From: Bacillota bacterium
GTDB taxonomy: Bacteria; Eremiobacterota; SpSt-956; JAKJGF01
Reading direction: 5' to 3'
Length of the DNA stretch: 32,800 nucleotides
Assembly: GCA_029555925.1 (NCBI GenBank)
Contig: JAKPQU010000186.1
Coordinates: forward strand, 1-32,800
Shown in pieces: positions 8,155 through 31,168 of the stretch. A program made the position numbers and the translations under genes. The notes under the pieces are model-generated. The model searched no databases and had not been told where the DNA came from. It saw only the letters and a program-made list of their open reading frames with translations. Every line of letters begins with the position of its first letter. Positions within the stretch are counted from its first letter, which is position 1.

Positions 8155-8187
8155 CGTGACGCGTGACGCGTGACGCGTGACGCGTGG
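8155..8187 (+). repeat. Heptad array (GTGACGC) after flgE
   Basis: Four nearly perfect GTGACGC units sit seven bases after the flgE stop. Their reverse complement is arrayed at 8391-8421, just before flbD. The two arrays can pair as a long stem enclosing about 200 bases. Confidence 0.85.
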
Positions 8188-8229
8188 CAGGAGATTGCCG
8201 GATATAGTGTATTGAATTTAAAGCCATCA

Positions 8230-8315
8230 GGGCAGATTGTTTAACGTTGAAGGTTGAGTATTGAAATTAACCTTAAACTCTAAACTCTCATATCTCAACT
8301 ATACAATAGTTTAAA
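8230..8315. repeat. Inner inverted heptads (GTTGAAG / CTCAACT) in the flgE-flbD gap
   Basis: Inside the outer GTGACGC/GCGTCAC arms lie a GTTGAAG-GTTGAGT run and, about 25 bases later, TAAACTC-TAAACTC-TCATATC-TCAACT. These are imperfect reverse complements, so the gap has a nested two-level palindromic layout. The rest of the 298-base gap shows no gene. Confidence 0.6.
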
Positions 8316-8390
8316 GGAAATGAAAATTCTTATATGTTTAAATTAAGTGACTGCAAGAAAATAACTCTGATAAATTATGGCTATTTTCAT

Positions 8391-8421
8391 CGCGTCACGC
8401 GTCACGCGTTACGCGTTACGC
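8391..8421 (-). repeat. Heptad array (GCGTCAC/GCGTTAC) before flbD
   Basis: About four tandem units, two GCGTCAC then two GCGTTAC. They are in the complementary sense to the array after flgE and end about 25 bases before the flbD start. Confidence 0.85.
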
Positions 8422-8446
8422 ACTTAATGAAGGGAAATGAACCTGT

Positions 8447-8644
8447 ATGATAGAACTTACCAGACTTAATAATATGTCTGTAGTGGTAAATTCCGATCTG
8501 ATACAATGTATAGAGGAAACGCCTGATACTGTAATAACCCTGACGAACGGGTATAAATATGTGGTAAAAGAAAAGCCGGCAGATATTATAGAGAAGGTAG
8601 TAATATTTCGCCGCAGAATAACTTCGCCTGTAGAAAAATCTTAA
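8447..8644 (+). CDS. flbD: Flagellar protein FlbD
   Basis: A 65-residue protein matching the small FlbD/FlgEa family that sits between flgE and motA in many Gram-positive and spirochaetal flagellar operons. It reads MIELTRLNNMSVVVNSDLIQ, then IEETPDTVITLTNGYKYVVKE, which is the whole family profile. The biochemical role of FlbD is not established; in spirochaetes it is linked to flagellar assembly. The start is ATG with GGGAAATGA upstream. Its position between flgE and motA supports the name. Confidence 0.9.
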   Translation: MIELTRLNNMSVVVNSDLIQCIEETPDTVITLTNGYKYVVKEKPADIIEKVVIFRRRITSPVEKS

Positions 8645-8650
8645 AGATTA

Positions 8651-8681
8651 TTGACCGAGTTAAGCATAAATATTTTATAAT
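8651..8681 (+). promoter_or_regulatory. Candidate sigma-70-type promoter for motA
   Basis: TTGACC (8651-8656) and TATAAT (8676-8681) are good hexamers, but the 19-base spacer is longer than ideal. The region lies between flbD and the heptad array preceding motA. Confidence 0.3.
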
Positions 8682-8700
8682 GTAATAAAAAGGTATGATT

Positions 8701-8731
8701 ACGCGTCACGTGTCACTCGTCACGTGTCACG
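8701..8731 (-). repeat. Heptad array before motA
   Basis: Tandem seven-base units GCGTCAC, GTGTCAC, TCGTCAC and GTGTCAC end in GA. They lie upstream of the AGAAGAGG ribosome site of motA. Confidence 0.8.
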
Positions 8732-8757
8732 AATACCTGCAGAAGAAGAGGTAAAAG

Positions 8758-9537
8758 ATGGATCTTTTAACTGTAACAGGTTTATTATTAGGATGGATGG
8801 CCATACTGGTAGGAGCAAAATTGGAAGGTCTCAGGTTTGATTCTCTTTTAAAATTATCTGCCTTCTGTATAGTAGGTATAGGAACCTTTGCCGCTGCCTG
8901 TACGGGATTTACAATGGAACAATTAAAAGGATTCCCTGAAGCTCTGAAGAGATGTTTTTCTCCGGGCAAACAGAAGGTAGCAGATATTATTCCCATAATT
9001 ACAGGATATGCAAAAAAAGCCCGCCACAGTGGGCTTTTAGTACTGGAACCAGAACTAAAAATACAGAAGGATCCATTTTTCAGAAAAAGTCTGCAACTCC
9101 TTATAGACGGAAACAGTATAGATGATGTGAGAACTATTATGGAATCAGAATTATCTATATGGGAAGAACAGGAAAAAATCTATGAAAAATTTCTGAGAGC
9201 CATGGGCGGATTTTCGCCTACCCTTGGTATCATAGGTACTGTAATGGGTCTTATTCATGTAATGGGCAATCTGGGAGAACCTGATAAGATAGCAACAGGT
9301 ATAGCTACTGCCTTTATTGCAACCTTCTACGGCGTGTCCTTTGCCAATCTCATATTTTTGCCTCTTGCCGCAAAACTCAAGGCAAGAAGAGAAGAAGCAT
9401 TGCTGATTAAAGAAATGATCCTGGCTGGAGTGCTCTCCATCGGTTCGGGAGATTCATCTCTTATAGTTATGGAAAAATTATGCACCTACTTAAAAGAAGA
9501 AGACAGAGCCCGTATAATGGCGAAGAAGAATTACTGA
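8758..9537 (+). CDS. motA: Flagellar motor stator protein MotA
   Basis: MotA forms the proton- or sodium-conducting stator with MotB. The 259-residue protein has four membrane segments: two near the N-terminus, and two at about 155-205 with the family pattern PTLGIIGTVMGLIHVMGNL and ATGIATAFIATFYGVSFANL. The large cytoplasmic loop between them carries basic and acidic residues that contact FliG. The start is ATG with AGAAGAGG upstream. motB follows after a 140-base gap. The coding sequence contains an AAAAGCCC/GGGCTTTT hairpin at 9015-9038. Confidence 0.94.
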   Translation: MDLLTVTGLLLGWMAILVGAKLEGLRFDSLLKLSAFCIVGIGTFAAACTGFTMEQLKGFPEALKRCFSPGKQKVADIIPIITGYAKKARHSGLLVLEPELKIQKDPFFRKSLQLLIDGNSIDDVRTIMESELSIWEEQEKIYEKFLRAMGGFSPTLGIIGTVMGLIHVMGNLGEPDKIATGIATAFIATFYGVSFANLIFLPLAAKLKARREEALLIKEMILAGVLSIGSGDSSLIVMEKLCTYLKEEDRARIMAKKNY

Positions 9538-9679
9538 CCTTCGGCAAAAGGACTATATCCGGAATATGATCCATAAGTCTCTTTTCAACGGGAAATAGAC
9601 AGAAAGACCGGTATAAAATTAATGTAGAAGATGTTATCATGAGAAAGGAATATAATTTATCATGATGGGAGAGTATATT

Positions 9680-10468
9680 TTGAAGCGTAATAAGAGACAT
9701 ACAGAAGAAGAAAATGAAGAGAGATGGCTTATAACTTATGCTGATATGATAACACTTCTAATGGTTTTTTTTGTTGTAATGTATGCAATTGCAGAGGTAA
9801 AAGCATCAAAGCTTAATCCCATATCATTTGCCCTGCAGAGAAATTTTACTACTGAACCGGGTATTATTCCCGCTGGAGAATCAGAAGGAAAATATACAGG
9901 CATTACAGAAATAATAAAGCAGGATGAAAGTGCTGATAAACTGTATGAAGAGGAAAAAAGAGATGATGTAAATCCTCTTCTGAATGATCTGGGAGAACTT
10001 CTTTCAAGTCAGTTAAAGAAGGAAAAACTCGGCAAAGCTATAAATATAGAAGTAAATGAAAATGAACTTACTATCAGCCTTAATACAGGGAAAGGTTTTT
10101 TCGAGAGAGGCAGTGCTGTCATCAAAGCTGACACGGCTCAGGTGCTCAATACTATTTCCGGTCTCTGTAAAGACCTGCCTGAAAAGGCAAGTATAAGAGT
10201 AGAAGGATATACATGTGATCTGCCCATACAATCGGGAGAATATCCTTCAAACTGGGAGTTGTCTACTGCCAGAGCAACAAATGTGGCGAGATTTCTTATA
10301 GAAAAAGGACATATAGATCCCTGGAGGATTTCTGCTGCCGGTTACGGAGAATACAGGCCAAAGGTACCGAATAATTCCGAATATAACAGATCTATTAACA
10401 GAAGAGTAGATATTACCATTATGGTTAACAAATCAGCAACTAACGGAAAGGTTTCAATCAGTGAATAG
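9680..10468 (+). CDS. motB: Flagellar motor stator protein MotB
   Basis: MotB anchors the stator to peptidoglycan and supplies the ion-binding aspartate. With a TTG start at 9680 the protein has 262 residues. A basic N-terminus leads into RWLITYADMITLLMVFFVVM, where the aspartate at residue 22 is the expected ion-binding site. The C-terminal half is an OmpA-like peptidoglycan-binding domain (FFERGSAVIKADT, NWELSTARATNVARFLI, NRSINRRVDITI). GGGAGAG lies six bases before the TTG. The in-frame ATG at 9662 is the alternative and would add six residues. Confidence 0.93.
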   Translation: MKRNKRHTEEENEERWLITYADMITLLMVFFVVMYAIAEVKASKLNPISFALQRNFTTEPGIIPAGESEGKYTGITEIIKQDESADKLYEEEKRDDVNPLLNDLGELLSSQLKKEKLGKAINIEVNENELTISLNTGKGFFERGSAVIKADTAQVLNTISGLCKDLPEKASIRVEGYTCDLPIQSGEYPSNWELSTARATNVARFLIEKGHIDPWRISAAGYGEYRPKVPNNSEYNRSINRRVDITIMVNKSATNGKVSISE

Positions 10469-10484
10469 TGGGCGGTGATGCAAG

Positions 10485-10513
10485 GCGTTACGCGTCACGC
10501 GTCACGCATCACG
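10485..10513 (-). repeat. Heptad array between motB and the fliY-like gene
   Basis: Units GCGTTAC, GCGTCAC, GCGTCAC and GCATCAC followed by GA. They sit right before the AAGGAGG ribosome site of the next gene. Confidence 0.8.
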
Positions 10514-10533
10514 AACATTAAGGAGGAAAAAGA

Positions 10534-11610
10534 TTGAACAGAGCAGAACTCAATCCTTCAGAGAAAGAAACTATATCTATTCTGGATGAAGCTTTCGTGC
10601 AATCACTGGAAATAGTCCTTTCTTCGCTCTCTGAAGAACCTATAAATATTGCCCCGAAAGAATTGAATCTGAAAATAGATGATGCCTTTACAGAACAATG
10701 TTTATCCATAAAAACAGAATATATAGAAGGCTTTTCCGGCCATGACAGAATGTTATTTAAATTAAAAGATGCCATTCCTTTTACTCAGCTGGCAATGGGA
10801 GAGAAAATAGATGTTTCCGTTATAGATTTGGATGATCTCCATCAGAGTGTATTCAGTGAAATAGCAAGTCAGGTAGTGAGTTCTACAATTACTACCATAT
10901 CAGGTAAAATAAATAAGAAGATAAATTTTTCTTTTCCCGAAATTTCAGTAATAACTATGCCGGGAAATTTACCTGATACAAAAGAGCCATCAATAGAACT
11001 TTATTTCAGTCTGTCAGTAGGAAGCCTGATAGACAGTTATTTTATGTATCAGGTGCCAAAGAACTGGATTAATTATCTTTCAGGTAAAAGTACTGAAACG
11101 GCTCCTGAACAGCCTCTACCATTACAGCCGGAAAGAACTATTCCCGAAATGCCTTCATTACAGGAAGAAAAATTTACTGCAAGACCCGGTGGTGCCATAT
11201 CCGGATATGAATTTGAAGAACCTCCTGCACCACAGCAGAAAGCTTACCAGGCAGAAATACCATATCAGATGCCGCCCGGCAAAACAGAGCAGGAAATGAT
11301 TGTAAAGCCTGCCAAATTTTCCCAGTTAGTACCTTCAAGAGACAGAGGGCCTTCCAATTCTATTGATTTATTCCTGGATGTACCTATGAAACTCACAGCA
11401 GTGCTGGGAAGGGCTGTACTCTATCTGAAAGATGTTCTGGATATGGGAAGCGGTTCTGTTTTTGAACTGGACAGGCTTGCCGGCGAGCCTATAGATCTTA
11501 TGGTAAATAATAAACTTGTTGCCAGAGGAGAAGTAGTTGTCATAGACGAAAAATTCGGCGTAAGGGTTACAGAAACACTTGAAGAAATACAGAGAAAAGG
11601 AAGAACGTAG
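10534..11610 (+). CDS. fliY: FliN/FliY-type flagellar motor switch protein with CheC-like N-domain
   Basis: This 358-residue C-ring protein has two recognisable parts. Residues 275-350 are a FliN/SpoA domain (SIDLFLDVPMKLTAVLGR, then VFELDRLAGEPIDLMVNNK and GEVVVIDEKFGVRVTE). Residues 1-185 look like the CheC/FliM-middle fold, and a proline-rich linker (about 186-270) joins them. In active CheC/FliY phosphatases the helix reads [D/S]xxxExxN. Here it is SVFSEIAS (105-112), so serine replaces the catalytic asparagine; the equivalent N-terminal helix also lacks it. CheY-P phosphatase activity is therefore doubtful. The start is TTG behind AAGGAGG. No separate fliM or fliL is present in the locus. 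Confidence 0.82.
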   Translation: MNRAELNPSEKETISILDEAFVQSLEIVLSSLSEEPINIAPKELNLKIDDAFTEQCLSIKTEYIEGFSGHDRMLFKLKDAIPFTQLAMGEKIDVSVIDLDDLHQSVFSEIASQVVSSTITTISGKINKKINFSFPEISVITMPGNLPDTKEPSIELYFSLSVGSLIDSYFMYQVPKNWINYLSGKSTETAPEQPLPLQPERTIPEMPSLQEEKFTARPGGAISGYEFEEPPAPQQKAYQAEIPYQMPPGKTEQEMIVKPAKFSQLVPSRDRGPSNSIDLFLDVPMKLTAVLGRAVLYLKDVLDMGSGSVFELDRLAGEPIDLMVNNKLVARGEVVVIDEKFGVRVTETLEEIQRKGRT

Positions 11611-11611
11611 G

Positions 11612-11645
11612 GAGGGTCAAGGGTGATGGGTGATGGGGAAAGGTA
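11612..11645 (+). repeat. GGTGATG heptads after the fliY-like gene
   Basis: A short run of GGGTGAT-GGGTGAT-GGGG follows the stop codon. The units are 7 bp, a variant of the window-wide heptad family. Confidence 0.5.
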
Positions 11646-11693
11646 AACTGGCCGGGGAAGCTGTTGATAATATGTAAAAAGAGGTTTTTATAT

Positions 11694-12137
11694 ATGGAGA
11701 ATATACAGATTACTAAAATATTTTTCTTATTCTTTTTTGCAGGTCTCTCTTCTGCCGCCCTGGCAGACTCCTATACTCCCCCTCCCAGTTCATCACTTTC
11801 CATCGTCAGGGTGCTCTTTTCCCTTTTAATAGTATTCGTTATTTTTTACATTATTGTATTTTTCTTAAAATTTATTTTTATCAGAAAAGGACTTATATTC
11901 AATAAAAAAGGTTTAAAGTTGTTAAATATTTTACATGCCGGTCCTAACCTTTCCCTTTATCTCGTTGAATCAGGAGAAAAAACCCTTCTTATAGCAGCCA
12001 ATGCCAATCATATAACACTTGTGCAGGAAAGTCAGAAAACAGAAGAAGAATCAACTGACACAGAAAATACTTCTACAGAACCTTCATTTAAAGACTTTTT
12101 AAGTAAACTCGGATTAAACAGGGGGGACAAAAAATGA
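11694..12137 (+). CDS. fliO: Flagellar biosynthesis protein FliO
   Basis: FliO helps assemble the FliP-FliQ-FliR export gate. The 147-residue protein has a signal peptide ending near SAALA-DS, one transmembrane helix (VRVLFSLLIVFVIFYIIVFF), and a cytoplasmic beta domain (LKLLNILHAGPNLSLYLVE, KTLLIAAN) typical of FliO. The C-terminus is acidic and polar. I chose ATG 11694 because AAAGAGG lies nine bases upstream; the TTG at 11664 would add ten residues before the signal peptide. It overlaps fliP by four bases (ATGA). Confidence 0.85.
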   Translation: MENIQITKIFFLFFFAGLSSAALADSYTPPPSSSLSIVRVLFSLLIVFVIFYIIVFFLKFIFIRKGLIFNKKGLKLLNILHAGPNLSLYLVESGEKTLLIAANANHITLVQESQKTEEESTDTENTSTEPSFKDFLSKLGLNRGDKK

Positions 12138-12958
12138 TTTTTTCAACATATTTCAGAAAAGACAAAATTTCACACTTTACCAGATCTTCTCCCTTCACGT
12201 CTCACGTCTCACTCTTCACCATATTCATATTCCTGTTATTATTCGTTTTTTTGACTGTAGATAGTTCTTTTTCCGCCTCGGTTCCTCTCCCAAGTATTAA
12301 AATAGGTATAGAAAAATCCGACAGACCGGAAGATGTATCACTGAGTTTACAGATACTGCTCTTCATGACAGTTCTATCACTGGCACCGACAGTACTCATT
12401 ATGTTAACTTCTTTTACCAGAACCGTTGTAGTTCTATCCTTTACCCGTAATGCTCTCGGAACGCAGCAGACTCCGTCAAATCAGTTAATCATAGGGCTGG
12501 CACTATTTCTCACTCTTTTTATAATGGGCCCTGTATTTAAAAAAGTAAATGATGTAGCAGTTAAACCATATATGGATAAAAAAATATCCTTTCAGTCTGC
12601 TCTCTCAAAAGGAAGTGAGCCTTTGAGGGAATTTATGTTCAAACAGACAAGAGAAGAAGATCTTGCTGTTTTTATAGAGGCTGCCCGTCTTCCAAGACCT
12701 GCCAGACTTACTGATATACCGACAGATGTGCTGATACCGTCTTTTATTATAAGCGAACTCAGGACTGCTTTTCAGATAGGTTTCTTAATATATATACCCT
12801 TTTTATTGATAGATGTAGTTGTAGCTACTACCCTTATGGGTATGGGTATGATGATGGTTCCTCCAATGATGATATCTCTGCCTCTGAAACTTATGCTGTT
12901 TATTATGGTAGACGGATGGAACCTTATAGTGAGAGCCATCGTACTCAGTTTCAATTAA
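12134..12958 (+). CDS. fliP: Flagellar export gate protein FliP
   Basis: FliP is the main subunit of the export gate pore. The 274-residue protein has a hydrophobic signal-like segment (LFTIFIFLLLFVFLTV), the periplasmic linker, then the conserved core PTVLIMLTSFTRTVVVLSFT, LGTQQTPSNQLIIGLALFLT and the C-terminal LMGMGMMMVPPMMISLPLKL. The start is ATG overlapping fliO, with GGGGGG seven bases upstream. Oddly, the first 30 or so residues before the signal segment are coded by a heptad array (TTCACGT CTCACGT CTCACTC TTCACC, about 12193-12221). This gives an abnormal, basic and hydroxyl-rich N-terminal extension. Confidence 0.95.
   Translation: MIFSTYFRKDKISHFTRSSPFTSHVSLFTIFIFLLLFVFLTVDSSFSASVPLPSIKIGIEKSDRPEDVSLSLQILLFMTVLSLAPTVLIMLTSFTRTVVVLSFTRNALGTQQTPSNQLIIGLALFLTLFIMGPVFKKVNDVAVKPYMDKKISFQSALSKGSEPLREFMFKQTREEDLAVFIEAARLPRPARLTDIPTDVLIPSFIISELRTAFQIGFLIYIPFLLIDVVVATTLMGMGMMMVPPMMISLPLKLMLFIMVDGWNLIVRAIVLSFN
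12193..12221 (-). repeat. Heptad array inside the 5' end of fliP
   Basis: Four 7-bp units, TTCACGT, CTCACGT, CTCACTC and TTCACCA, lie in the coding sequence between the start and the signal-anchor segment. They read through as roughly PFTSHVSLFT without a stop. Confidence 0.75.
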
Positions 12959-13008
12959 GAAAGGTTTTAACAGAGAGAGATTATTACCAGGTTTTAATGA
13001 GCTCCTAA

Positions 13009-13030
13009 TGCGTGACGCGTGATGGGTCAC
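13009..13030 (+). repeat. Short heptad array between fliP and fliQ
   Basis: ATGCGTGACGCGTGATGGGTCAC contains two to three GTGACGC-like units. The rest of the 113-base gap has no gene. (Motif spans 23 bases; core units are GCGTGAC and GCGTGAT.). Confidence 0.6.
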
Positions 13031-13071
13031 AACAGATAAAAATACAACTATAATCGAGAAAGGTTTTAATT

Positions 13072-13341: not shown

Positions 13342-13421
13342 AGGGTGAGTCGTGAGTCGTGAGTCGTGAAAAGCAAAAAGTGAATAGTGAAGGGTGAAAA
13401 GTGAAGAGTGAGAAGTGAAGA
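13338..13421 (+). repeat. Composite heptad array after fliQ (GTGAGTC, GTGAAGA)
   Basis: The array begins at the fliQ stop. It holds GTGAGTC repeats followed by GTGAATA, GTGAAGG, GTGAAAA and GTGAAGA units, about eleven in all. Confidence 0.85.
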
Positions 13422-13444: not shown

Positions 13445-13488
13445 AATCACGCATCACGCCCCACCCGTTACGCATTACGCGTCACGAT
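13445..13488 (-). repeat. Composite heptad array (GCATCAC, GCGTTAC, GCGTCAC)
   Basis: About six TCAC-sense units complement the array after fliQ. They end in CACGATT. Confidence 0.8.
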
Positions 13489-13531: not shown

Positions 13532-13590
13532 GTGAAGAGTGAAGAGTGAAGAGTGATAATAAATCACGCATCACGCATCACGCATCACGA
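13532..13590. repeat. Heptad arrays in the fliR leader
   Basis: Three to four GTGAAGA units (13532-13556) are followed by four GCATCAC units (13564-13589) ending in GA. They stand between a GGGAGG ribosome-like site at 13527-13532 and the ATG of fliR. Confidence 0.85.
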
Positions 13591-15551: not shown

Positions 15552-17614
15552 GCAAAGGATTTAATGATATATTATTTGCCATAATAGTTATATCCATAGT
15601 GGTAATAATGATCATACCTATACCGGTTGTACTTCTAGATCTGCTCATTGCTTTAAACATAGCACTTGCTCTGACAATACTGCTGGTAGGCATGTATATC
15701 AGAGAACCTCTTGAATTATCCATATTCCCATCACTTTTATTATTTACAACCCTTTTTCGTCTTGCCCTTAACATAAGTGCTACGAGACATATACTGCTTC
15801 ATGCCTATGCAGGTAAATTAATTGAGTCTTTCGGCAACTTTGTTGTTGGAGGTAATTATGTTGTAGGTATAGTAATTTTTATAATTATTGTAGTAGTTCA
15901 GAATGTTGTTATTATAAGCGGTTCTCAGAGAGTTGCCGAAGTAGCAGCAAGATTTACCCTTGATGCTATGCCCGGTAAACAGATGAGTATTGATGCGGAT
16001 CTCGGAGCAGGTATTATTACAGAACAGCAGGCAGTAGAAAGGAGACAGAAGCTTCAAAGAGAGGCAGATTTTTACGGTGCTATGGACGGAGCTTCCAAGT
16101 TTGTCAAAGGTGATGCCATAGCTGCTATCATAATAATCTGTGTAAATATCATTGCAGGTTATATCATAGGTGTTCTTCAATTAAAGATGGCTCTGGACAA
16201 AGCTCTCGGGATATATGTTCTTCTCACGGTAGGTGAAGGTATTGTATCACAGTTACCTGCTCTGCTAATTTCTACCGCTACAGGTGTTGTTGTTACAAGA
16301 GTGGCATCGGAAGGGAACCTTGGAGAAGAGATAGGCACCAAACTGCTTGCCTACCCGAAGGCTATTTATATAGTGGCAGGACTTCTTCTCTTCTTTGTTC
16401 TTATACCGGGACTTCCCAAACTGCCTTTTTTAATTATGGGACTCGCGTCAGGATTTCTGGCTTATACTATTGATAGAAAGAAAAAGATTGCGGCACTTGT
16501 ACCTAAAGTAGAAGAAGAAGGTGCTCCTCCTCCTTCAAAAGAAGAAGAGGTTATGGCACTTCTTGATATTGATCCCATAGAACTGGAGTTCGGTTATGGT
16601 CTTATACCTCTGGTGGATAAAGAACAGGGAGGAGATTTACTGGAAAGGGTAAGTACTCTCCGGCGCCAGTGTGCCCTGGATCTGGGAATTATAATACCTC
16701 TCATAAGAATAAGAGATAATATAAGATTAAAGCCCAGCGGCTATTCTATAAAAATATATGACATAGAGGTTGCTTCAGGAGAAGTAATGGTCGGTCGTCT
16801 TATGGCTTTAAATCCCGGTGCAATAGACGAACCGGTAGACGGAATAAAAACCAGAGAACCAAGTTTTGGACTTCCTGCAACATGGATCACAAAAGCACAG
16901 CAGATTGAAGCAGAAGCAAAGGGTTATACGGTAATAGATCCTACCTCTGTTATTGTAACTCATCTGACGGAAACCATAAAATCCCATGCTCCTGACATAC
17001 TTACAAGGGAACAGACAAAAATACTCGTAGACAATATTAAGAAAAATAATCCTGTAGTAGTGGATGAAATTATACCTGAAGTTATGAACATAGGAGAAGT
17101 TCAAAAGATTTTGCAAAATCTGCTCAGGGAAAGAGTACCAATCAGGAATTTACTGTTAATTCTTGAAACAATAGCAGACAGAGCAGCAGCCAATAAAAAT
17201 ACCGATATGTTAACAGAATATGTAAGACAGGCATTATCGAGAGTAATATGCCAGCAACATCAGAAAGACGGTGCCTTAACTGTAATTACTGTCGATCCTC
17301 AGATAGAAAGAACCATCCAGGATCTTGCCAGTAAATCACAGGCAGATCCATATTCTGTGGTAGATCCCAGGTGGCTCCAGAAGTTTTATAATTCTCTTCT
17401 TAAAGAGATAGAAAAAATGTCACTGGAGGGGACACAGCCCATAATTTTGTGTACTTCAGGCGCCAGAGTTCATCTAAAAAGACTCATAGAAAGAGTTCTT
17501 CCCAATGTGGCAGTAATATCCTTTTCGGAAGTTATACCGGAAGTGAGGGTAGAAGCCAGAAGTATGGTGTCTATTATCGAAGAAGGACAGAAAAATGTTA
17601 TAATTAATGCATGA
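15548..17614 (+). CDS. flhA: Flagellar export gate protein FlhA
   Basis: FlhA is the large export-gate subunit; its cytoplasmic nonamer ring receives substrate-chaperone complexes. The 688-residue protein has about eight membrane helices (1-310), with the FHIPEP-family loop RFTLDAMPGKQMSIDADLGA and DFYGAMDGASKFVKGDAIA. After a linker the cytoplasmic domain runs from about 350 to the end. It overlaps flhB by four bases. The genes that often follow, flhF and flhG, are absent; a CheY-like gene comes next, beyond a heptad hairpin. Confidence 0.96.
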   Translation: MSKGFNDILFAIIVISIVVIMIIPIPVVLLDLLIALNIALALTILLVGMYIREPLELSIFPSLLLFTTLFRLALNISATRHILLHAYAGKLIESFGNFVVGGNYVVGIVIFIIIVVVQNVVIISGSQRVAEVAARFTLDAMPGKQMSIDADLGAGIITEQQAVERRQKLQREADFYGAMDGASKFVKGDAIAAIIIICVNIIAGYIIGVLQLKMALDKALGIYVLLTVGEGIVSQLPALLISTATGVVVTRVASEGNLGEEIGTKLLAYPKAIYIVAGLLLFFVLIPGLPKLPFLIMGLASGFLAYTIDRKKKIAALVPKVEEEGAPPPSKEEEVMALLDIDPIELEFGYGLIPLVDKEQGGDLLERVSTLRRQCALDLGIIIPLIRIRDNIRLKPSGYSIKIYDIEVASGEVMVGRLMALNPGAIDEPVDGIKTREPSFGLPATWITKAQQIEAEAKGYTVIDPTSVIVTHLTETIKSHAPDILTREQTKILVDNIKKNNPVVVDEIIPEVMNIGEVQKILQNLLRERVPIRNLLLILETIADRAAANKNTDMLTEYVRQALSRVICQQHQKDGALTVITVDPQIERTIQDLASKSQADPYSVVDPRWLQKFYNSLLKEIEKMSLEGTQPIILCTSGARVHLKRLIERVLPNVAVISFSEVIPEVRVEARSMVSIIEEGQKNVIINA

Positions 17615-17669
17615 AGGGTGAAGTGTGAAGAGTGATTATTACCTCACTTCACGCTTCACTCTTCACGAT
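17613..17669. repeat. Heptad hairpin between flhA and the cheY-like gene
   Basis: The GAAGGGTGAAGTGTGAAG arm (from 17613) pairs with CTTCACGCTTCACTCTTC (to 17666), allowing two G-T pairs. The stem is about 18-20 bp around a short loop (ATTATTACC). The left arm overlaps the flhA stop codon. There is no T-tract, so it may attenuate or protect mRNA rather than terminate. Confidence 0.75.
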
Positions 17670-18960: not shown

Positions 18961-18990
18961 CTGGTGACGCGTAACGCGTAATGCATGACG
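18961..18990 (+). repeat. Heptad array in the fliA-cheY2 gap
   Basis: GTGACGC, GTAACGC, GTAATGC and ATGACGG units occupy the middle of the gap. The first part of the gap (18877-18945) has loose GTGAGTG/GTGAGCA and TCACTGT units. No gene is seen in the gap. Confidence 0.7.
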
Positions 18991-19478: not shown

Positions 19479-19483
19479 TAATC

Positions 19484-19503
19484 GTGACGCGTGAGGCGTG
19501 ACA
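19484..19503 (+). repeat. Heptads between convergent genes (GTGACGC, GTGAGGC)
   Basis: Two to three GTGACGC-like units lie in the 49-base space between the CheY-like gene (+) and the secreted hypothetical (-). Confidence 0.6.
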
Positions 19504-20034: not shown

Positions 20035-20109
20035 AAACCCCTTCTTATTGATTGCCTTTAAAAATTACCTGTGTTATAATTAACCTGGTAAAATTTGATT
20101 GCAAGTAAT

Positions 20110-20126
20110 TATAACATAATGTTATA
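20110..20126. promoter_or_regulatory. 17-bp perfect palindrome in a divergent intergenic region
   Basis: TATAACATAATGTTATA is an 8-1-8 perfect palindrome in the 268-base region between the divergent hypothetical (-) and HDOD (+) genes. It could be an operator for a dimeric regulator. At this AT content it could also arise by chance. The rest of the region contains a GTGACGC unit at 20225-20240 and no gene. Confidence 0.3.
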
Positions 20127-20302
20127 GATAAGTTCAATTGTTAAAAGATTGTGTTAAAAAATGACAGGTGATTTTACATATAAATAACTAAGAGGTTGTA
20201 AAAAAATAACCATATATCTATAATCGTGACGCGTATCACGAGGACAGTAAATATAATTTGCCAGAGTTATTTTCTTACACTCACTGAATATCAAGGTGAA
20301 AA

Positions 20303-21164: not shown

Positions 21165-21265
21165 TCGTGAAGGGTGTCAGGTGATGGATGATGGGTGATG
21201 GGCTTTAGGTGAAGTCTGTCAGGTGATGGGTGATGAGTGAAGGGCGTTAGGTGAAGGATGTCTGA
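21165..21265 (+). repeat. Heptad array GGTGATG/GTGAAGG after the HDOD gene
   Basis: About a dozen degenerate seven-base units (GTGAAGG, GGTGATG, GGATGAT, GGTGAAG) start two bases after the HDOD stop. They occupy the left half of a 279-base gap. Confidence 0.75.
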
Positions 21266-21278: not shown

Positions 21279-21345
21279 GCTCACTGGTCACTGATCACTA
21301 GTCACCGGTCAATGAACTCTATTCACTGTTTACTACTCACTAACC
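21279..21345 (-). repeat. Heptad array CACTGGT/CACTGAT before R2
   Basis: Units CTCACTG, GTCACTG, ATCACTA and GTCACCG, then less regular TTCACTG and CTCACTA, run in the opposite sense to the preceding array. Confidence 0.7.
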
Positions 21346-21346
21346 G

Positions 21347-21426
21347 CCATGACCGGGTGGTCACAACGTGAGAACTTATCCTCCCTTCACCCTTCACTCT
21401 TCATCATTCACGATTTTCATATAAAT
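21347..21426 (-). repeat. Short dispersed repeat R2, copy b (upstream of the kinase gene)
   Basis: It begins CCATGACCGGGTGGTCACAAC-like and ends in CGATTTTCATATAAAT, the reverse of copy c at 28666-28735. The interior contains TTCACCC and TTCACTC heptads. It ends 17 bases before the kinase start codon. Confidence 0.7.
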
Positions 21427-25509: not shown

Positions 25510-28500
25510 ATGCCCGACAGAAATGCAATAAAAATTAATGAAATCAATAAAATAGAGGTTATTCCTGCACTCATCGGAGACGAAAAAATAGAATTCTCTC
25601 AGGATGGGACAATGCTCCTTGGGATTGATTCAAGGAAAAATTTCAAAGTATATGATATTGAAAAAAAATCTATTATAAGAAGCTATTACGGCTCTGATTA
25701 TTGTTTTGATTGTACTGATTTTTCACCTGACGGCAAATTTTTTGCTTCCACCGGAGCTTCTTCTCCATCTTCTATCAATGTATGGCATACAGAAGATAAA
25801 AAATTACTAAAAACCTTTGAAGGTCACTGCAGTTCAATAGATTCCATCTGTTTTGCATCCAATGAGGCTTTTATATCTCTTGCAAATGTAGAGACAGGCC
25901 GTACGGCAAAAGTAGAAATAAAAATATGGGATCTTCTCAGTGGCAGATGTGTCCGTACTTTTCTGGAAGCCAGCTTAATAAAGGCACAGAAAATTTTTTC
26001 TTCTCCTGACGGAAATTTTTTAATAGTTATCTATCCCCGTAACATAAAGATTTTTTCAAGTTCTACAGGGGATTTTATTGCAGTTCTGGAGGGACTCTCA
26101 CTGAATATAGACACACTCAGTTTTTCACCTGACGGGGGGAAAATGGCTACCATAAACAAAAAAAACAAAATAAAAATATGGAAAACAGACAGTGGCATGC
26201 GCATCAAGGAATTGCAAATGGAAGATAAAATTGAAATAAAACAATCCAGTTTTTCACCTGATGGTAATTCGATAATGTTTATAACAGTTCCTGACAATAA
26301 ATTCAGAATGTTTGACGTAAAAACAGGTGAAAAATTATTTGAAATAGAATTGAACGGGGAAAGTGAAATTACAGGTTTCTGTATCTCTTCCAACGGAAGG
26401 TATCTGGCAGTACAGTTTAACGGGGAAAAAACAGTAATCTATGAAATAATCTGGGAAGGAGAAAGTACAAAGGTTTTTTCTGATTTTGAAAATTTTCTTG
26501 CATCAGGGAAAAATTACCTGAAACAGGGTTTACTTGACAGAGCACTGGAGAATTTCACGAATGCTCTTTCTATAAAAGGACAGGAAGAAAATCCGGATCT
26601 TCTCGCTTCTATAAGGATCTGTGAAAAAAGAATAAAAGCAAATAATTCTCTTAAAACAGCCGATGATTTCTTCAAAAACAGAGATTATGAAAAAGCAGAA
26701 GAACTTTACAGGGACCTCATTAAAATTGAAGAACTGGATGCGAGAGCCAGATTCGTGATCTCCGATAAGATAGAAGATATAAAATTACTTCACAATGTGA
26801 CTGATTTCTCCAGTGTTTTTCGTATGAGTAAGCAAGGAGAAGACCCTTTGTTACCTTACGGAGTATATTTTATTCTTTATAAAGAAGATACAGGGAAAGC
26901 ATTGAAATACATCAGATATTTATCTAAAGTTACAGAACTGCCTGCAGAAATATGGAACCTGGCAGGATATGCCTATTCTGCCAGTATGAATTTCTATTCT
27001 GCGCTGGAAAGTTTTAAAAAAGCTCACAACCTTGAACCTGAGAACATGGCCTATCACAGAAATTATGCATGGTCTCTTTATTACAATGAAAACTATAGCG
27101 ATAGTTTTTATGAATTTAAAAAACTCTATGATAAAATAAAAGATGATGAAATCTTAATAGATATGGCTGTTGTTATGACAGGTAAGGATAAAAGCCTTAT
27201 TACTGCTATAGATACATTTTTAGAAATACTCCGCAGAACTCCAGGTTCTCTGAGGGCAAATCTTTATCTCGGTGAATTACTCGCAGGAATCAATGATTTC
27301 TTCCCTACTTTTTTTAATTCATCACCGGATAGAGAAAAATCTGAAATATACCTGAAAAAATCACAAGAACTTAATCCTTATCTTTTAAGGATAAAGTCTT
27401 CCCTGAAATATGCCTCTTCTATATTTGAAAATTTATCCGAAGAGGAAGGGGAATACAGTGACAGGGAGTTTTTATCTCTTATCTATAAAGATTCTCCCAG
27501 AGGAAGAAACTGGTCTGTCCTGGAAACCTATCTAGGGCAACACCAGAGCAATATAAGACATATTGAATTTTCAAAATCAGGTAATACCTTTTTAACTATC
27601 GGTGAGAAAAATGACAGGATTTTTTACTATATATGTCACGAAAGACGATGGGTGCCAAAGTCACTGGATCTTTCGAAAACAGGCCTCTCTTCCATAGCCC
27701 TCTCAGGGAGAGGAGAATATATAGCTCTATCAGGGAAAGGTGAAAACATACATCTCTGGAACCTCTGTGACGGAGAATATAAATTTGTAAAAACATGGCG
27801 CTCCCTTCAAAAAAATATAAACAGATTATTTTTTATTAAAGGAGGAACACAACTTTTTTCTGCAGGAAAGAATCAGATCCTGAAACTCTGGGACGTACAG
27901 AGCGGTATCTGCCTTAAAGCCTTCAGAGAAGACTGTTTTCATCTGTCCTGTATAGACATTTCCTTTGATGAAAGAAAAATAGCATCTGCAGATACGGACA
28001 GAACCATTAAATTATGGGATATAGAAACAGCAAAATGTACCGGCACCTTCTCGAAACATTCATCTCCTGTCATATGTGTCAGATTTTCTCCTGATAATAA
28101 ATTTCTCATTTCTGCCGATAATGATGGAGAGGTCAAATTCTGGAATATTTCTGACGAAAAATGTATTAATACCATATCAACAGAAGATAAAATAACGAAT
28201 ATGAAATTTTCTCCCGATGGTAATTTCCTTTTTATATTCGGTAAAGAAATATCGGTATGGAATTTATGCAAAAATTCCATAGAAACCTTTGATTTTTTTG
28301 ACAGAGGAGTTACCGCACTGGCAATTTCTCCTGATGGTAATATATTCATAACAGGCGATCATAGAGGAGTAGTAAAAACATGGCACAGATCTGTCATAAG
28401 TGAACAGAATTATAGATATTATCTTACCGGTCATGACATAATAAAATTTAATAGTTTCTGGAAGGAGAAGGATATTCGCTTTGAATATAAAGAAAAAGAA

Positions 28501-28626
28501 AGTGAAAATAATTTGAATTCGGAAAAGCAGGAAATTCTTCAAATAGAGTTGAAAAATGATAAAGAAGAAAAGAGAGTTTTTGGAAAAACATGGGATAAAG
28601 TAATGACGTTTTTTACAAAACAATAG
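25510..28626 (+). CDS. WD40-TPR-WD40 repeat protein
   Basis: A 1038-residue protein without catalytic motifs. Residues about 20-315 hold WD40 repeats (FSPDGKFFAS, INVWHTEDKK, IKIWDLLSG, IKIWKTDSG). Residues about 325-650 are TPR-like helical repeats (ALENFTNALSI, YEKAEELYRDLI, ALESFKKAHNLEPEN). Residues about 675-985 hold a second WD40 propeller (LWDVQSGICLKAF, LWDIETAKCTG, FSPDNKFLISADNDG). The charged tail may be a coiled coil. A scaffold role is likely. No Shine-Dalgarno is visible before ATG 25510; the heptad array directly precedes it, so the leader is unusual. Possible links to the kinase are inference. Confidence 0.85.
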   Translation: MPDRNAIKINEINKIEVIPALIGDEKIEFSQDGTMLLGIDSRKNFKVYDIEKKSIIRSYYGSDYCFDCTDFSPDGKFFASTGASSPSSINVWHTEDKKLLKTFEGHCSSIDSICFASNEAFISLANVETGRTAKVEIKIWDLLSGRCVRTFLEASLIKAQKIFSSPDGNFLIVIYPRNIKIFSSSTGDFIAVLEGLSLNIDTLSFSPDGGKMATINKKNKIKIWKTDSGMRIKELQMEDKIEIKQSSFSPDGNSIMFITVPDNKFRMFDVKTGEKLFEIELNGESEITGFCISSNGRYLAVQFNGEKTVIYEIIWEGESTKVFSDFENFLASGKNYLKQGLLDRALENFTNALSIKGQEENPDLLASIRICEKRIKANNSLKTADDFFKNRDYEKAEELYRDLIKIEELDARARFVISDKIEDIKLLHNVTDFSSVFRMSKQGEDPLLPYGVYFILYKEDTGKALKYIRYLSKVTELPAEIWNLAGYAYSASMNFYSALESFKKAHNLEPENMAYHRNYAWSLYYNENYSDSFYEFKKLYDKIKDDEILIDMAVVMTGKDKSLITAIDTFLEILRRTPGSLRANLYLGELLAGINDFFPTFFNSSPDREKSEIYLKKSQELNPYLLRIKSSLKYASSIFENLSEEEGEYSDREFLSLIYKDSPRGRNWSVLETYLGQHQSNIRHIEFSKSGNTFLTIGEKNDRIFYYICHERRWVPKSLDLSKTGLSSIALSGRGEYIALSGKGENIHLWNLCDGEYKFVKTWRSLQKNINRLFFIKGGTQLFSAGKNQILKLWDVQSGICLKAFREDCFHLSCIDISFDERKIASADTDRTIKLWDIETAKCTGTFSKHSSPVICVRFSPDNKFLISADNDGEVKFWNISDEKCINTISTEDKITNMKFSPDGNFLFIFGKEISVWNLCKNSIETFDFFDRGVTALAISPDGNIFITGDHRGVVKTWHRSVISEQNYRYYLTGHDIIKFNSFWKEKDIRFEYKEKESENNLNSEKQEILQIELKNDKEEKRVFGKTWDKVMTFFTKQ

Positions 28627-28629
28627 AAT

Positions 28630-28655
28630 CGTGACGCGTGACGCGTGACGCGTAA
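28630..28655 (+). repeat. Heptad array after the WD40-TPR gene
   Basis: Three GTGACGC units follow the stop codon (TCGTGACGCGTGACGCG core). R2 copy c follows shortly after. Confidence 0.8.
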
Positions 28656-28665
28656 ATGGATAAAC

Positions 28666-28735
28666 ATTTATATGAGAATCGTGAAGGGTGAAGAGAGATA
28701 AGTTTTCATTCTTCGTTGTGACCACCCGGTCATGG
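28666..28735 (+). repeat. Short dispersed repeat R2, copy c (upstream of the M20 peptidase)
   Basis: It begins ATTTATATGAGAATCGTGAA, includes GGGTGAAGAG heptads, and ends GTTGTGACCACCCGGTCATG. It matches the reverse complement of copy b at both ends. It lies 72 bases before the peptidase start, followed by a GCGTTAC/GCATTAC array at 28769-28785. Confidence 0.7.
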
Positions 28736-28807
28736 TTGTCGTATAAACCACTTAATAAGAATGGTTTTCGCGTTACGCATTACGATTTATATGAGAGGAG
28801 TATTTTA

Positions 28808-30025
28808 ATGAAAGAAAAATTAAAAGCTTATTTTGAGGCAAAGAGAGAGGAAATAACAGAATATACAATTAATATCCTTACCGACATGGTAAGGGAGAAA
28901 ACAGTAAATGCAGGAAAAGAAAGTCTGAAAGACTTCCCATATCTTACAATACCGGGTGAAGAAAGCAGGGTTTCTTCCATAGTTATAAGAGAATTTGAAA
29001 AAATGGGTATTCCCTATGAAGTAAGAGAACTAGTAAAGGGCAGAGCAAATGTTATCGGTTCCTATGGTAAAGGTGAGCCTTCACTTCTTATAGGAACTCA
29101 TATGGATGTAGTGCCTCCCGGAGACGGATGGGATACGGATCCTTTTGAGCCCTATGTAAAAGACGGGAAAATATATGGCAGAGGAGTTCTTGACAATAAA
29201 GGCCCTATCGCATGTTCTCTCGCCACAATGAAGATATTTAAAGAACTTGATATTCCTCTGTCAGGTACATTTATGGTCGCTGCCATAGCGAGTGAAGAAT
29301 TCAGGGAAAAAGGTGAAATGGACCCCGGTATAGAATTTTTAATCAAAAATAAATATCTTACTCCCAGATATGCTATAATCCCGGACATAGGAGAAAATAT
29401 GCAGAAAATCGACATAGCAGAAAAGGGACGGCTCGTAATAAAGGTTACCTCTACAGGGAAACAGGCTCATGGCTCCACACCCGATAGAGGTATAAATGCA
29501 GTATTTATGATGAATGATTTCCTCACAGAACTGAAACATTATAAACCTTCCTATACAGAACATAAATATCTCGGCAAACCCAGTCTTAACCTGGGTGTCA
29601 TAAAAGGCGGAGCAGCGGCAAATATTGTTCCTGCAAAATGTGACGTACTGCTGGATATAAGATATTTACCATGTCAGACAGCGGAAGGAATTGTTGAAGA
29701 GCTGAAAGAGCTGTCCAGGAAAGTTGAAGGGGTTTTCGATTTTACTATAGAACAGTGCAGTCGTCCTCATGAAATAGAACCTGATAATATTTTGATAAAG
29801 GTAATACAGGAAAATTCAAAGAAGATTACAGGTTTTACGCCTGAACCTTTCGGTATGGGCGGAGGCACCTTTGCAAAATCATTTAACCTTGCCGGTATTA
29901 TAGCAGTAGGCTTTGGCCCGGGCGACGATTTTGCCTTCCATGTAGCAAATGAATATGTAGAGATTAAACAACTGGTAGACTTTTCACATCTTCTTGGCGC
30001 AATAGCCATAGATCTTTTAAAGTGA
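28808..30025 (+). CDS. M20-family metallopeptidase (ArgE/DapE/PepV-like)
   Basis: A 405-residue zinc peptidase or deacylase. The metal ligands are all present: H in IGTHMDVVPPGDGW, D in GRGVLDNKGP, EE in ASEEF, D in IIPDIG, and H in AFHVANE. The dimerisation or lid domain follows KQAHGSTPDRGINAV. The length fits the family. The substrate cannot be fixed; di- or tripeptide hydrolysis, or ArgE/DapE-type deacylation, are all possible. I chose ATG 28808 because GAGAGGAG lies seven bases upstream; a longer frame from 28688 would translate R2 and a heptad array. Confidence 0.88.
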   Translation: MKEKLKAYFEAKREEITEYTINILTDMVREKTVNAGKESLKDFPYLTIPGEESRVSSIVIREFEKMGIPYEVRELVKGRANVIGSYGKGEPSLLIGTHMDVVPPGDGWDTDPFEPYVKDGKIYGRGVLDNKGPIACSLATMKIFKELDIPLSGTFMVAAIASEEFREKGEMDPGIEFLIKNKYLTPRYAIIPDIGENMQKIDIAEKGRLVIKVTSTGKQAHGSTPDRGINAVFMMNDFLTELKHYKPSYTEHKYLGKPSLNLGVIKGGAAANIVPAKCDVLLDIRYLPCQTAEGIVEELKELSRKVEGVFDFTIEQCSRPHEIEPDNILIKVIQENSKKITGFTPEPFGMGGGTFAKSFNLAGIIAVGFGPGDDFAFHVANEYVEIKQLVDFSHLLGAIAIDLLK

Positions 30026-30152
30026 AAAGTGAAGAGTGATTAAGGTTTATAGTTGATAGTCTGGTCTTAAACTCTCAACTCTCAACTTTCAACTCTCAAC
30101 TTATGTAACCTATTACGCCTCACGCATCACGCATCACGCGTAACGCGTAACG
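30022..30152. repeat. Three-part heptad array between the peptidase and YD-repeat genes
   Basis: It starts at the peptidase stop with GTGAAAA-GTGAAGA. Four to five CAACTCT-type units (30068-30100) follow, then six GCATCAC/GCGTAAC units (30113-30152). The three heptad classes sit side by side in one 150-base gap. Confidence 0.8.
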
Positions 30153-30175
30153 AATTTTAAACGGAGGATGATTTT

Positions 30176-30538
30176 ATGAGCGAAGAAAAAGTGGTTAAAC
30201 TTAAAGACGGAAGAATAAAATATATAGAAACAGAAGAAGGTCTTTATAAATTTAATTATACAGATGATAAAATACTGGATCATATTATATGTCCCGATGA
30301 AGGTAAATATGAATTCTTTTATGACGAAGATGACGATCAGATGATAGATTATATCGAAACTCCATATGGAACCTTAAATTTTTATTATACCAGAACAGGG
30401 AAAACAGATTCTATAAAACTGGAAAGCGGAGAGGAATTTGTCTTTTACTATGATGACAGCGGAGATGTTCAGATAGAGGTCATAGGAGAAATAGACGAAT
30501 TTCTGGAAAAAGAACTGGGTATGTTCGGTATAATTTAG
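30176..30538 (+). CDS. Acidic protein with RHS/YD-like repeats
   Basis: A 120-residue cytoplasmic acidic protein. Four units of about 20-22 residues begin near residues 22, 43, 65 and 86: GLYKFNYTDDKI, GKYEFFYDEDDD, GTLNFYYTRTGK and EEFVFYYDDSGD. Each has an aromatic strand then a polar turn, like the YD repeats of RHS proteins but alone and without a toxin domain. There is no signal peptide. The start is ATG with CGGAGGATG upstream. The function is unknown. Confidence 0.75.
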   Translation: MSEEKVVKLKDGRIKYIETEEGLYKFNYTDDKILDHIICPDEGKYEFFYDEDDDQMIDYIETPYGTLNFYYTRTGKTDSIKLESGEEFVFYYDDSGDVQIEVIGEIDEFLEKELGMFGII

Positions 30539-30539
30539 A

Positions 30540-30572
30540 TCGTAACGCGTGACGCGTGATGCGTGACGCGAG
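30540..30572 (+). repeat. Heptad array after the YD-repeat gene
   Basis: The units GTAACGC, GTGACGC, GTGATGC and GTGACGC follow the stop codon by two bases. They precede the end of the - strand folT-like gene. Confidence 0.8.
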
Positions 30573-30584
30573 AAGAGAGACCTG

Positions 30585-31109
30585 TTAATTGCCTTCAGGA
30601 TTTCTGAGCCTGAAGGCTTTTAATATTTTATATATGATAAAAGCATATAAGGGTACATGAATTAACTGGGAAACACTTCCTTCCAGCATTTTAATGAACA
30701 GGAAATTTTTCCCTGCCAGCTGGGAGTAAAAATATGGCATAAGGATGATTTTTGTTACAAACTGCCCTGTAAATATAGCACAGGTAAGATACCAGAAAGA
30801 GGGCATCTTCATATCTTTATTAAAAGGTAACAGAAAAAGAGCAGGAATAAATCCTGTAAGGGCAGACGTAAGGGTAAATCCAGGATGGTATGGTTTTCCG
30901 AAAGAATTCAGAAAATAGCCGAGAATATCAGACAGGCTGCCTACAATGGCCCCTGATACAGGACCGAAAATTATGCCTGATAATATTATGGGAAAACCAT
31001 GAAATGTAACGATTTTTACCTGAATATTAACATACCTTGCAAGTATAATTGTAATGGCAATAAAGAGTCCTAGATAAACAGTTTTCTGTGTAGCGGTAAA
31101 CATTTTCAT
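30585..31109 (-). CDS. folT: Folate-type ECF transporter S component (FolT-like)
   Basis: A 174-residue membrane protein with about six helices. It matches the folate-family S component pattern: LGLFIAITIILARYVNIQV, then GFPIILSGIIFGPVSGAIVGSLSDILGYF and HPGFTLTSALTGFIPALFLLPF. S components bind the vitamin and work with a shared EcfT and two EcfA ATPases, which are not in this window. The start is ATG 31109; the frame extends upstream through a heptad-like hairpin, which I exclude. No strong ribosome site is visible. It lies just downstream of a methyltetrahydrofolate methyltransferase gene on the same strand, which fits folate substrate specificity. Confidence 0.8.
   Translation of the reverse strand: MKMFTATQKTVYLGLFIAITIILARYVNIQVKIVTFHGFPIILSGIIFGPVSGAIVGSLSDILGYFLNSFGKPYHPGFTLTSALTGFIPALFLLPFNKDMKMPSFWYLTCAIFTGQFVTKIILMPYFYSQLAGKNFLFIKMLEGSVSQLIHVPLYAFIIYKILKAFRLRNPEGN
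30591..30629 (+). terminator. Intrinsic terminator for the YD-repeat gene, inside the folT-like 3' end
   Basis: GCCTTCAGG (30591-30599) pairs perfectly with CCTGAAGGC (30609-30617), followed by TTTTAATATTTT. It would stop + strand transcription from the YD-repeat gene. It overlaps the last codons of the convergent folT-like gene. Confidence 0.6.
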
Positions 31110-31122
31110 AGAACAGTGAACA

Positions 31123-31168
31123 GCAATCAGTGAGCAATGAGAGTCAAAGCTCACCGCTCACTGATTGC
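31123..31168. repeat. Hairpin with heptads between the methyltransferase and folT-like genes
   Basis: GCAATCAGTGAGC (31123-31135) pairs perfectly with GCTCACTGATTGC (31156-31168) around a 20-base loop. The arms are GTGAGCA-type heptads. It lies between the methyltransferase stop and the folT-like start on the - strand. Confidence 0.75.

Follow-up and report, generated by a model that had tools for sequence, protein, structure and literature searches.

The window analysed here is a stretch of 32.8 kb (contig JAKPQU010000186.1, positions 1 to 32,800) that carries a flagellar gene cluster plus non-flagellar genes, and many of its intergenic gaps hold tandem arrays of degenerate seven-base units (heptads), among which the form GTGANNN recurs. 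In other bacteria arrays of period 7 flank, mostly as inverted copies of each other, genes of the S23 family (PF05635; 23S rRNA IVP, four-helix bundle). The interpretation favoured here, which on balance we consider probable, is that the window arrays are inward-facing arms, or single surviving arms, of heptad stem-loop elements, and that these are kin, devoid of an open reading frame (ORF), of elements composed of a heptad array, an S23 gene and an inverted heptad array. The evidence consists of direct observations of the arms, their orientation, their association with S23, the matching of their inverted units and the presence or absence of the S23 form between closely related plasmids, and it points to spread as, or together with, an S23-coding mobile element rather than by the duplication or gene conversion first suggested. 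The short tandemly repeated repetitive (STRR) sequences of cyanobacteria are likewise short tandem heptads lying between genes. A broader proposition, offered more tentatively and with slightly less than even confidence, is that bacterial period-7 repeats (STRR, GGGAATC, TAACTGA and GTGANNN) may largely be the ends or remnants of one widespread class of S23 mobile element, the unit of which drifts but stays matched between arms and which spreads without a recognised recombinase, the window being saturated with its ORF-less forms. The link between heptads and S23 genes looks new, no paper connecting S23 or four-helix-bundle genes with heptad repeats having been found among the titles listed in searches of the open-licence PMC literature.

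Self-similarity of the window was scored at fixed lags from 4 to 15, runs being accepted at a score of at least 9 or, in a stricter setting, at least 10. At the former setting there were 26 lag-7 runs, 25 of them in gaps (which sum to 3161 bp), and other lags gave between none and four runs each, with the exception of lag 14 (13 runs), which is explained by 14 being twice 7. The density of lag-7 runs in the window was 0.64 per kb. The preliminary description of this DNA had placed arrays in most gaps, and 13 of the 22 gaps do contain lag-7 runs; at the stricter score 17 runs occupied 10 of the 22 gaps, whereas 200 dinucleotide shuffles of the gaps averaged 0.025 runs and never gave more than 1, and positions 1-8148 contained none. 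That description had also set down, as an outcome that would refute it, arrays being as common inside genes as between them, and a single run of the 26 lies in an ORF. Eighteen arrays satisfied a strict definition (exact GTGA, at least three units), and the different three-base remainders among them (CGC, AGA, AGG, GTC, TGG, TGC and others), which change between neighbouring gaps, bear out the report of several coexisting classes. When the arrays were read by eye, GGG was seen once per unit in the AGG and TGG classes and not at all in the CGC, AGA, GTC and TGC classes, a G-rich unit able to form G-quadruplexes being a mark of the GGGAATC kind of heptad. Arrays adjoin flagellar and non-flagellar genes alike, and four start within the stop codon itself (13338, 14362, 17612 and 30022). 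A search of Rfam with the window returned no match at gathering score. By eye, many arrays open with CGTGA and close with TCACG at the end nearer the gene, and these motifs may be the termini of elements.

The arrays are placed with a consistent orientation. For 16 of the 18 strict arrays the closer of the two flanking genes is that on the 5' side of the array (p 0.0013), a rule that covers both GTGA after stops and TCAC before starts and therefore agrees with the placement originally described; there were 10 sense arrays after a stop, six antisense before a start, one sense before a start and one antisense after a stop. Random orientation, which had been named as the contrary outcome, was not what was seen in ten other genomes chosen only for having GTGA arrays, where 48 of 63 arrays obeyed the 5'-side rule (p 4e-5), with 39/49 in tandem, 8/11 in convergent and 1/3 in divergent gaps; arrays of at least 13 units did not obey it (3/6). 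After stops in these genomes there were 33 sense arrays against 8 antisense. The arrays scored were those listed first and form part of the total, nine of 72 having been dropped as lying inside genes or at contig ends, and gene starts were taken from a simple self-written caller, which on the window placed 25 of 30 genes within 20 bp, missed the ECF gene and set four starts, those of fliO and fliP included, 63-225 bp too late. Where opposite arms share a gap they face inwards, GTGA preceding TCAC in 15 of 15 pairs in the other genomes (two of which have one arm in common) and in seven of eight pairs in the window, the eighth sitting between two hairpins of one gap. Some window arms stand alone, without a partner. 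The earlier picture of dispersed arrays with inverted placement is supported by these data. In genome G023 five arrays (L114, L116, L117, L119 and L120) were at contig ends, and short-read assemblies may therefore under-count arrays.

At one locus in another genome (L113 of G058) an arm pair encloses approximately 365 bp identified as PF05635. S23 loci were accordingly taken as a starting point, and an array of period 7 no more than 250 bp from the PF05635 match was found beside 24 of 30 loci of the Geotalea class (one locus from each genome, with arrays on both sides in 15), beside 14 of 21 in the Bacillota (the phylum of genome G031, which includes Carboxydocella, G006), beside 16 of 27 in the phylum of a Manganitrophaceae metagenome-assembled genome (G010) and beside 15 of 18 on cyanobacterial plasmids. 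No such array stood beside any of the 23 loci of Y1 transposase drawn from the same set of 58 Geotalea-class genomes, and lags other than 7 gave between none and six cases per set in the S23 flanks. Left out were four of 25 PF05635 loci (three that fell short of the cut-off and one lying in a frame of 1753 residues), three of 30 (short or weak) and, for proximity to contig ends, seven of 30 Y1_Tnp and two of 30 GxxExxY loci; 18 of 30 plasmid records were taken, and 17 of the 18 plasmid genes are annotated as 'four helix bundle protein' or 'S23 ribosomal (protein)'. The flanking unit varies by locus (GTGANNN, GGGGACT, AGGGGCT, AACTCGG, AGATGTG, AAAAGGG, AACAGGG and others), but in the 44 two-sided loci the unit of one arm mostly recurs inverted in the other, with mean matches of 5.8-6.25 of 7 positions against 3.8-4.2 when permuted, a value reached by none of 2000 permutations in each set. 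Arms of the window type, GTGA facing inwards, stood on both sides of S23 in eight of 88 usable loci (10 on the left and 13 on the right in all) and in the reverse sense in three and two of the 88; there were none beside 23 Y1 or 28 GxxExxY loci. Run density was 2.9 per kb in the S23 flanks (250 bp) and 0.32 in the outer parts of S23 loci, against 0.03 in Y1 and 0.02 in FlhA loci, so that the density beside S23 is approximately 90 to 140 times that of the control loci.

Counts across whole genomes tell the same way. GTGANNN arrays with four units or more are present in 33 of the 58 genomes and in 9 of 35 genomes reached via FlhA loci (35 of 80 loci being taken), and in the 58 the array count follows that of strong S23 matches (at least 60 bits, counted by hand from the result table) with rho 0.68 (p 5e-9, kinship uncorrected), whereas it does not track GxxExxY counts (rho 0.20) or genome size (rho 0.23). 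S23 was present in 17 of 18 genomes with at least 10 array hits compared to 17 of 40 others. Of the 58, 27 also gave matches to a reversed control pattern, because some units can equally be read as AGTGNNN, and array hits are thus not purely GTGA-specific. None of the best 80 FlhA loci listed is named Eremiobacterota or has GTGA arrays of at least three units, and viral contigs gave five matches to GTGACGCGTGACGCGTGACG, at 58-73% GC. The idea that period-7 flanks are a general trait of small intergenic ORFs was rejected, since only one of 28 GxxExxY (PF13366) loci has them. Those loci (L310-L339) carry flanking repeats of the CACGGAGACACGGAG and CGCAGAGG types, with lags of 8, 9 and 10 in four, six and four of the 28 respectively, and it may be that the flanks of each small ORF family have a period of their own. 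Three cyanobacterial S23 genes lie within operons of clustered regularly interspaced short palindromic repeat systems, as cas6-S23-cas4 twice and cas10/cmr2-S23-cmr3 once (L262, L265 and L269).

Judged from empty sites on cyanobacterial plasmids, the S23 form evidently inserts between neighbouring genes. A Trichormus variabilis plasmid (L276) has S23 between CAGGAGT-type arms, and this 428-bp heptad-S23-heptad block, with GTAAT at both ends, is missing from plasmids of Aulosira, Nostoc linckia and Fremyella (L279, L280 and L281) that are 97.3-97.8% identical in the aligned parts; the equivalent site in Nostoc C052 (L282) holds a truncated S23. Two further filled and empty pairs at a gene junction (L272 vs L283, L274 vs L285) show imperfect 5-bp repeats, and in two others (L270 vs L286/L287, L268 vs L288/L289) the insert is missing but the spacer differs. 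There were six candidate empty records, of which H34, H35 and H37 were used as empty sites and H40 as a remnant. An orthologous gap in Geotalea (L163; L302, L303) contains an S23 element in G017 and a PF13366 ORF in G063, and approximately 100 bp without an ORF in G087, which is not a clean empty site.

The proposal that the arrays make transcript hairpins holds for part of them: seven of the 13 gaps with lag-7 runs fold at z < -2, that between flgE and flbD at z -8.8, and the other six do not reach z -2. Ten of all 22 gaps fold at z < -2, three of them without a lag-7 run (2372-2683, 20035-20302 and 31110-31171), and heptads are consequently neither the sole source of hairpins nor always one. 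The strongest fold (z -10.7) is that of the run-free gap 2372-2683, before fliI, which holds nested inverted repeats of a different kind; the gap 31110-31171 has GTGA and TCAC motifs on the hairpin arms, with a two-unit TCAC arm at 31151. Amongst 41 two-armed S23 elements, 35 fold with at least 15 arm-to-arm pairs (first against last 110 nt), the median being 32 pairs compared to a shuffle average of 11.4, and 36 exceed their own shuffles.

The full form of the proposed element, in many bacteria, would be a heptad arm, an S23 gene and an inverted heptad arm. Within operon RNA the arms are predicted to pair into a stem, which, by analogy, processing of the ribonuclease (RNase) III type might cut out or trim, and because the RNA stem could be removed in this way it is proposed that insertion between genes does little harm. 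The arms would lengthen and shorten by slippage in seven-base steps, S23 would presumably act in mobility with a recombinase or polymerase, and ORF-less arm pairs, those of the window included, would be short forms or remnants. If true, this would explain the opposite senses of arrays at stops and starts. The question would then be what enzyme is responsible for moving an element that encodes nothing but a helical bundle of approximately 120 residues.

The fliP leader offers a view of array change over short times. The sole lag-7 run in an ORF of the window (12195-12212) lies within the longest fliP ORF, towards its 5' end, and was scored as lying in a gap in the orientation test because the gene caller placed the fliP start downstream. 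In protein comparisons a 98% identical relative (P0241) has a leader longer by exactly seven residues, equivalent to 21 bp or three heptad units if read back, which indicates that this array alters on a short time scale, and in P0242, an 89% identical relative, the FliP leader shows no array. A more distant FliP (P0246) has the leader GFRFQVSGFRF, which at the protein level looks like a translated GTTTCAG heptad array.

A number of observations weigh against the interpretation favoured here. A profile built from 16 annotated S23 proteins found no window frame at an E-value of 10 or better, having recovered a positive control (L155) at 7e-43, and of 230 rows from a tblastn comparison with the window only two fell below 0.001 (8e-10 and 2e-7), both from a 615-residue frame (L241) and hitting the two response-regulator genes; as the window has no recognisable S23 gene, that its arrays are ORF-less relatives is our inference. 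The arm classes of ORF-less pairs match weakly (7/22 against 3.5 expected, p 0.025), five of the 44 two-sided S23 loci match better as direct copies (L146, L157, L159, L265 and L266) and in five of the 41 folded elements arm-to-arm pairing does not exceed that of shuffles. Of 33 genomes with arrays, six have no strong S23 match, and one genome (G056) combines 28 array hits with an absence of S23. Two loci (L262 and L268) gave no clean empty site, and 5-mers shared outside the arms are not in excess (14/41 against 10.5, p 0.13), so that target duplication rests on one clean and two suggestive sites. Nor are the data points independent, given the kinship among the 58 genomes and the near-identity of some S23 loci (L222/L227/L229; L276/L277).

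The arrays might alternatively be plain heptanucleotide microsatellites, arising by slippage anywhere, cleared by selection from genes and from positions resembling ribosome-binding sites, and merely sharing gaps with S23. The three-unit difference in fliP between close relatives and the weak matching of ORF-less arm classes are what this would lead one to expect and, as the extended Shine-Dalgarno sequence includes GGTGAT, an avoidance of GTGA before starts would also follow. Heptamers are, furthermore, over-represented in many genomes (PMC4692102). However, slippage leaves unexplained the preference for GTGA after stops in other genomes, the uniformly inward pairing there, and the matched inverted units across S23 with their high density, and we regard it as unlikely, although to be taken seriously. 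Selection might instead keep the arrays as regulatory sites that bind an RNA- or DNA-binding protein, or whose hairpins set the ends or stability of mRNA. Their placement within a gene cluster, close to stops and starts, the strong folding of several gaps and the translational control proposed for TAACTGA heptads (PMC4679880) are in keeping with such a role, but it sits poorly with the array-free FliP leader of the 89% identical relative, with the unrelated inserts that sister Geotalea species carry in one gap and with the indifference of window arrays to whether their neighbours are flagellar, and we think it improbable.

Two other possibilities can be given little credence. Intergenic inverted pairs resemble the arrangement of repetitive extragenic palindromes (REP) and bacterial interspersed mosaic elements (BIME), which would suggest elements moved by a REP-associated (Y1) tyrosine transposase (RAYT), but array and Y1_Tnp counts over the 58 genomes are not correlated (rho 0.18, p 0.18), three array genomes lack Y1_Tnp and 22 genomes with Y1_Tnp have no arrays. 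Mobilisation by Y1/RAYT was rejected on this lack of correlation and on the absence of arrays beside all 23 Y1_Tnp genes, and the REP-like account as a whole is very improbable. Least credible of all is a role of the arrays in phase variation, as switches of flagellar genes: a flagellar cluster does make up most of the window, and the fliP leader is a case of an array within an ORF, but nearly all runs are in gaps, non-flagellar neighbours included, and a change of seven residues in FliP keeps the frame.

The individual arrays are collected in the table. FliG, FlhA, HDOD, kinase-TPR, WD40, M20 peptidase and ECF S-component genes were assigned by Pfam (10 proteins scanned) and FliP from its named protein matches; flgE, flbD, motA/B, fliM/N, fliO, fliQ, fliR, flhB, fliA and cheY are names that we presume from reading the translations by eye. 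FlhA of the window is 96-97% identical to four proteins, one of them named Candidatus Eremiobacterota, which places the window in that group. Other repeats were seen in the window: a minimal palindrome TCGTGACGCGTATCACGA at 20222-20242, a REP-like palindrome GACCACCCGGTC that with shared flanks is present in two copies of opposite sense (21340-21365 and 28715-28740), and 51-bp tandem repeats at 5023-5402 in a fliK-like ORF.

Table. Heptad arrays and one related hairpin in the window, with position, strand and the evidence for each.
Feature	Position	Strand	Evidence
GTGACGC array, left arm of long hairpin, 6 bp 3' of flgE stop	8155..8186	+	lag-7 score 25
GCGTCAC/GCGTTAC array, right arm, 25 bp 5' of flbD	8391..8421	-	lag-7 run; pairs with 8155-8186
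TCAC array, 26 bp 5' of motA	8701..8731	-	strict GTGA array, lag-7 run
TCAC array, 20 bp 5' of fliM/N	10485..10513	-	strict GTGA array, lag-7 run
GGTGATG array, 2 bp 3' of fliM/N stop	11613..11637	+	lag-7 run
TCAC array in 5' part of longest fliP ORF	12195..12219	-	strict GTGA array, lag-7 run (12195-12212)
GTGAGTC array starting in fliQ stop codon	13338..13369	+	strict GTGA array, lag-7 run
GTGAAGR array, fliQ-fliR gap	13380..13418	+	strict GTGA array, lag-7 run
TCACGC/TTACGC array, fliQ-fliR gap	13446..13486	-	lag-7 run
GTGAAGA array, second hairpin of fliQ-fliR gap, exception to nearest-gene rule	13532..13556	+	strict GTGA array
GCATCAC array, 2 bp 5' of fliR	13563..13589	-	strict GTGA array, lag-7 run
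GTGA array starting in fliR stop codon	14360..14391	+	strict GTGA array, lag-7 run
GTGAAGR array starting in flhA stop codon, left arm	17612..17635	+	strict GTGA array, lag-7 run; gap z -4.85
TTCAC array, right arm, 5' of response regulator	17647..17666	-	strict array, lag-7 run, fold
GTGACGC/GTAACGC array, fliA-cheY gap	18964..18984	+	lag-7 run
GTGACGC array 3' of cheY stop	19483..19501	+	strict GTGA array, lag-7 run
GGTGATG/GTGAAGG arrays 3' of HDOD gene	21182..21240	+	strict GTGA array, lag-7 run
TCACTGG array, gap 3' of HDOD gene	21281..21311	-	strict GTGA array, lag-7 run
CTTCACC array, 39 bp 5' of kinase-TPR gene	21383..21403	-	lag-7 run
GTGACGC array, 3 bp 3' of WD40 gene stop	28630..28653	+	strict array, lag-7 run; gap z -4.5
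GTGAARA array starting in M20 peptidase stop codon	30019..30039	+	strict GTGA array, lag-7 run
AACTCTC array, gap 3' of M20 peptidase gene	30070..30101	-	lag-7 run
TCACGC/TAACGC array, 23 bp 5' of 120-aa gene	30115..30152	-	strict array, lag-7 run
GTGACGC array 3' of 120-aa gene	30541..30570	+	strict GTGA array, lag-7 run
Gap between ECF S-component and B12-binding genes	31110..31171	.	one hairpin, z -5.9

For heptad repeats, which have been reported here and there among bacteria, there is no agreed origin, and we know of no established role for S23 or four-helix-bundle genes outside ribosomal RNA (rRNA). The link between the two offers a testable common cause, namely a small element between genes with self-complementary ends of variable sequence. 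REP, BIME and miniature inverted-repeat transposable elements (MITEs) are also intergenic inverted repeats present in many copies, but the heptad elements differ from all of them in having no fixed sequence, their arms being tandem heptads that change unit from copy to copy, and from REP/BIME in showing no link to Y1 (RAYT) by correlation or adjacency in other genomes.

The heptad kind itself is already known, given prior reports of GGGAATC, GGGGA(C/T)T, TAACTGA and Geobacter metallireducens heptads. According to the portions of the reports drawn on here, in Xanthomonas and Nostoc the GGGAATC and GGGGA(C/T)T heptads are intergenic, vary in length between relatives and lie in the sense orientation near stops and antisense near starts, with 70 and 75 convergent pairs in two Xanthomonas genomes (Rehm et al. 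2015, PMC4692102), the TAACTGA heptads of Beggiatoaceae are found for the most part immediately upstream of starts, that genome having a single inverted case (MacGregor, PMC4679880), and the genome of Geobacter metallireducens has two other heptad families (PMC2700814). Window arrays resemble the GGGAATC kind in their 7 bp units, their confinement to gaps in all but one run and their placement rule (PMC4692102), and share with TAACTGA heptads (PMC4679880) and STRR the character of short tandem heptads between genes; they differ from the Xanthomonas and Nostoc kind in the unit GTGANNN, with several remainders side by side. The claim that the window goes beyond known repeats must nevertheless be narrowed, as the placement rule and inverted pairs are already in PMC4692102 and several GTGANNN classes coexist in Geotalea genomes too, by our own scan. 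In the same portions, the Xanthomonas/Nostoc paper reports no S23, four-helix or intervening-sequence link (PMC4692102) and that on TAACTGA makes no mention of S23 (PMC4679880).

The closest parallel for the S23 form is provided by the S23-coding intervening sequences of 23S rRNA, which, in the part of the source used here, are described as approximately 430 nt long, with inverted ends, excision by RNase III and a patchy distribution (PMC4990558). The heptad-S23 elements are like them in their length of approximately 430 bp, stem-forming inverted ends, S23 ORF and patchy occurrence; cleavage by RNase III has been shown for the rRNA kind only (PMC4990558). Unlike the rRNA-sited sequences (PMC4990558), the elements described here lie between protein genes, and their ends are heptad arrays.

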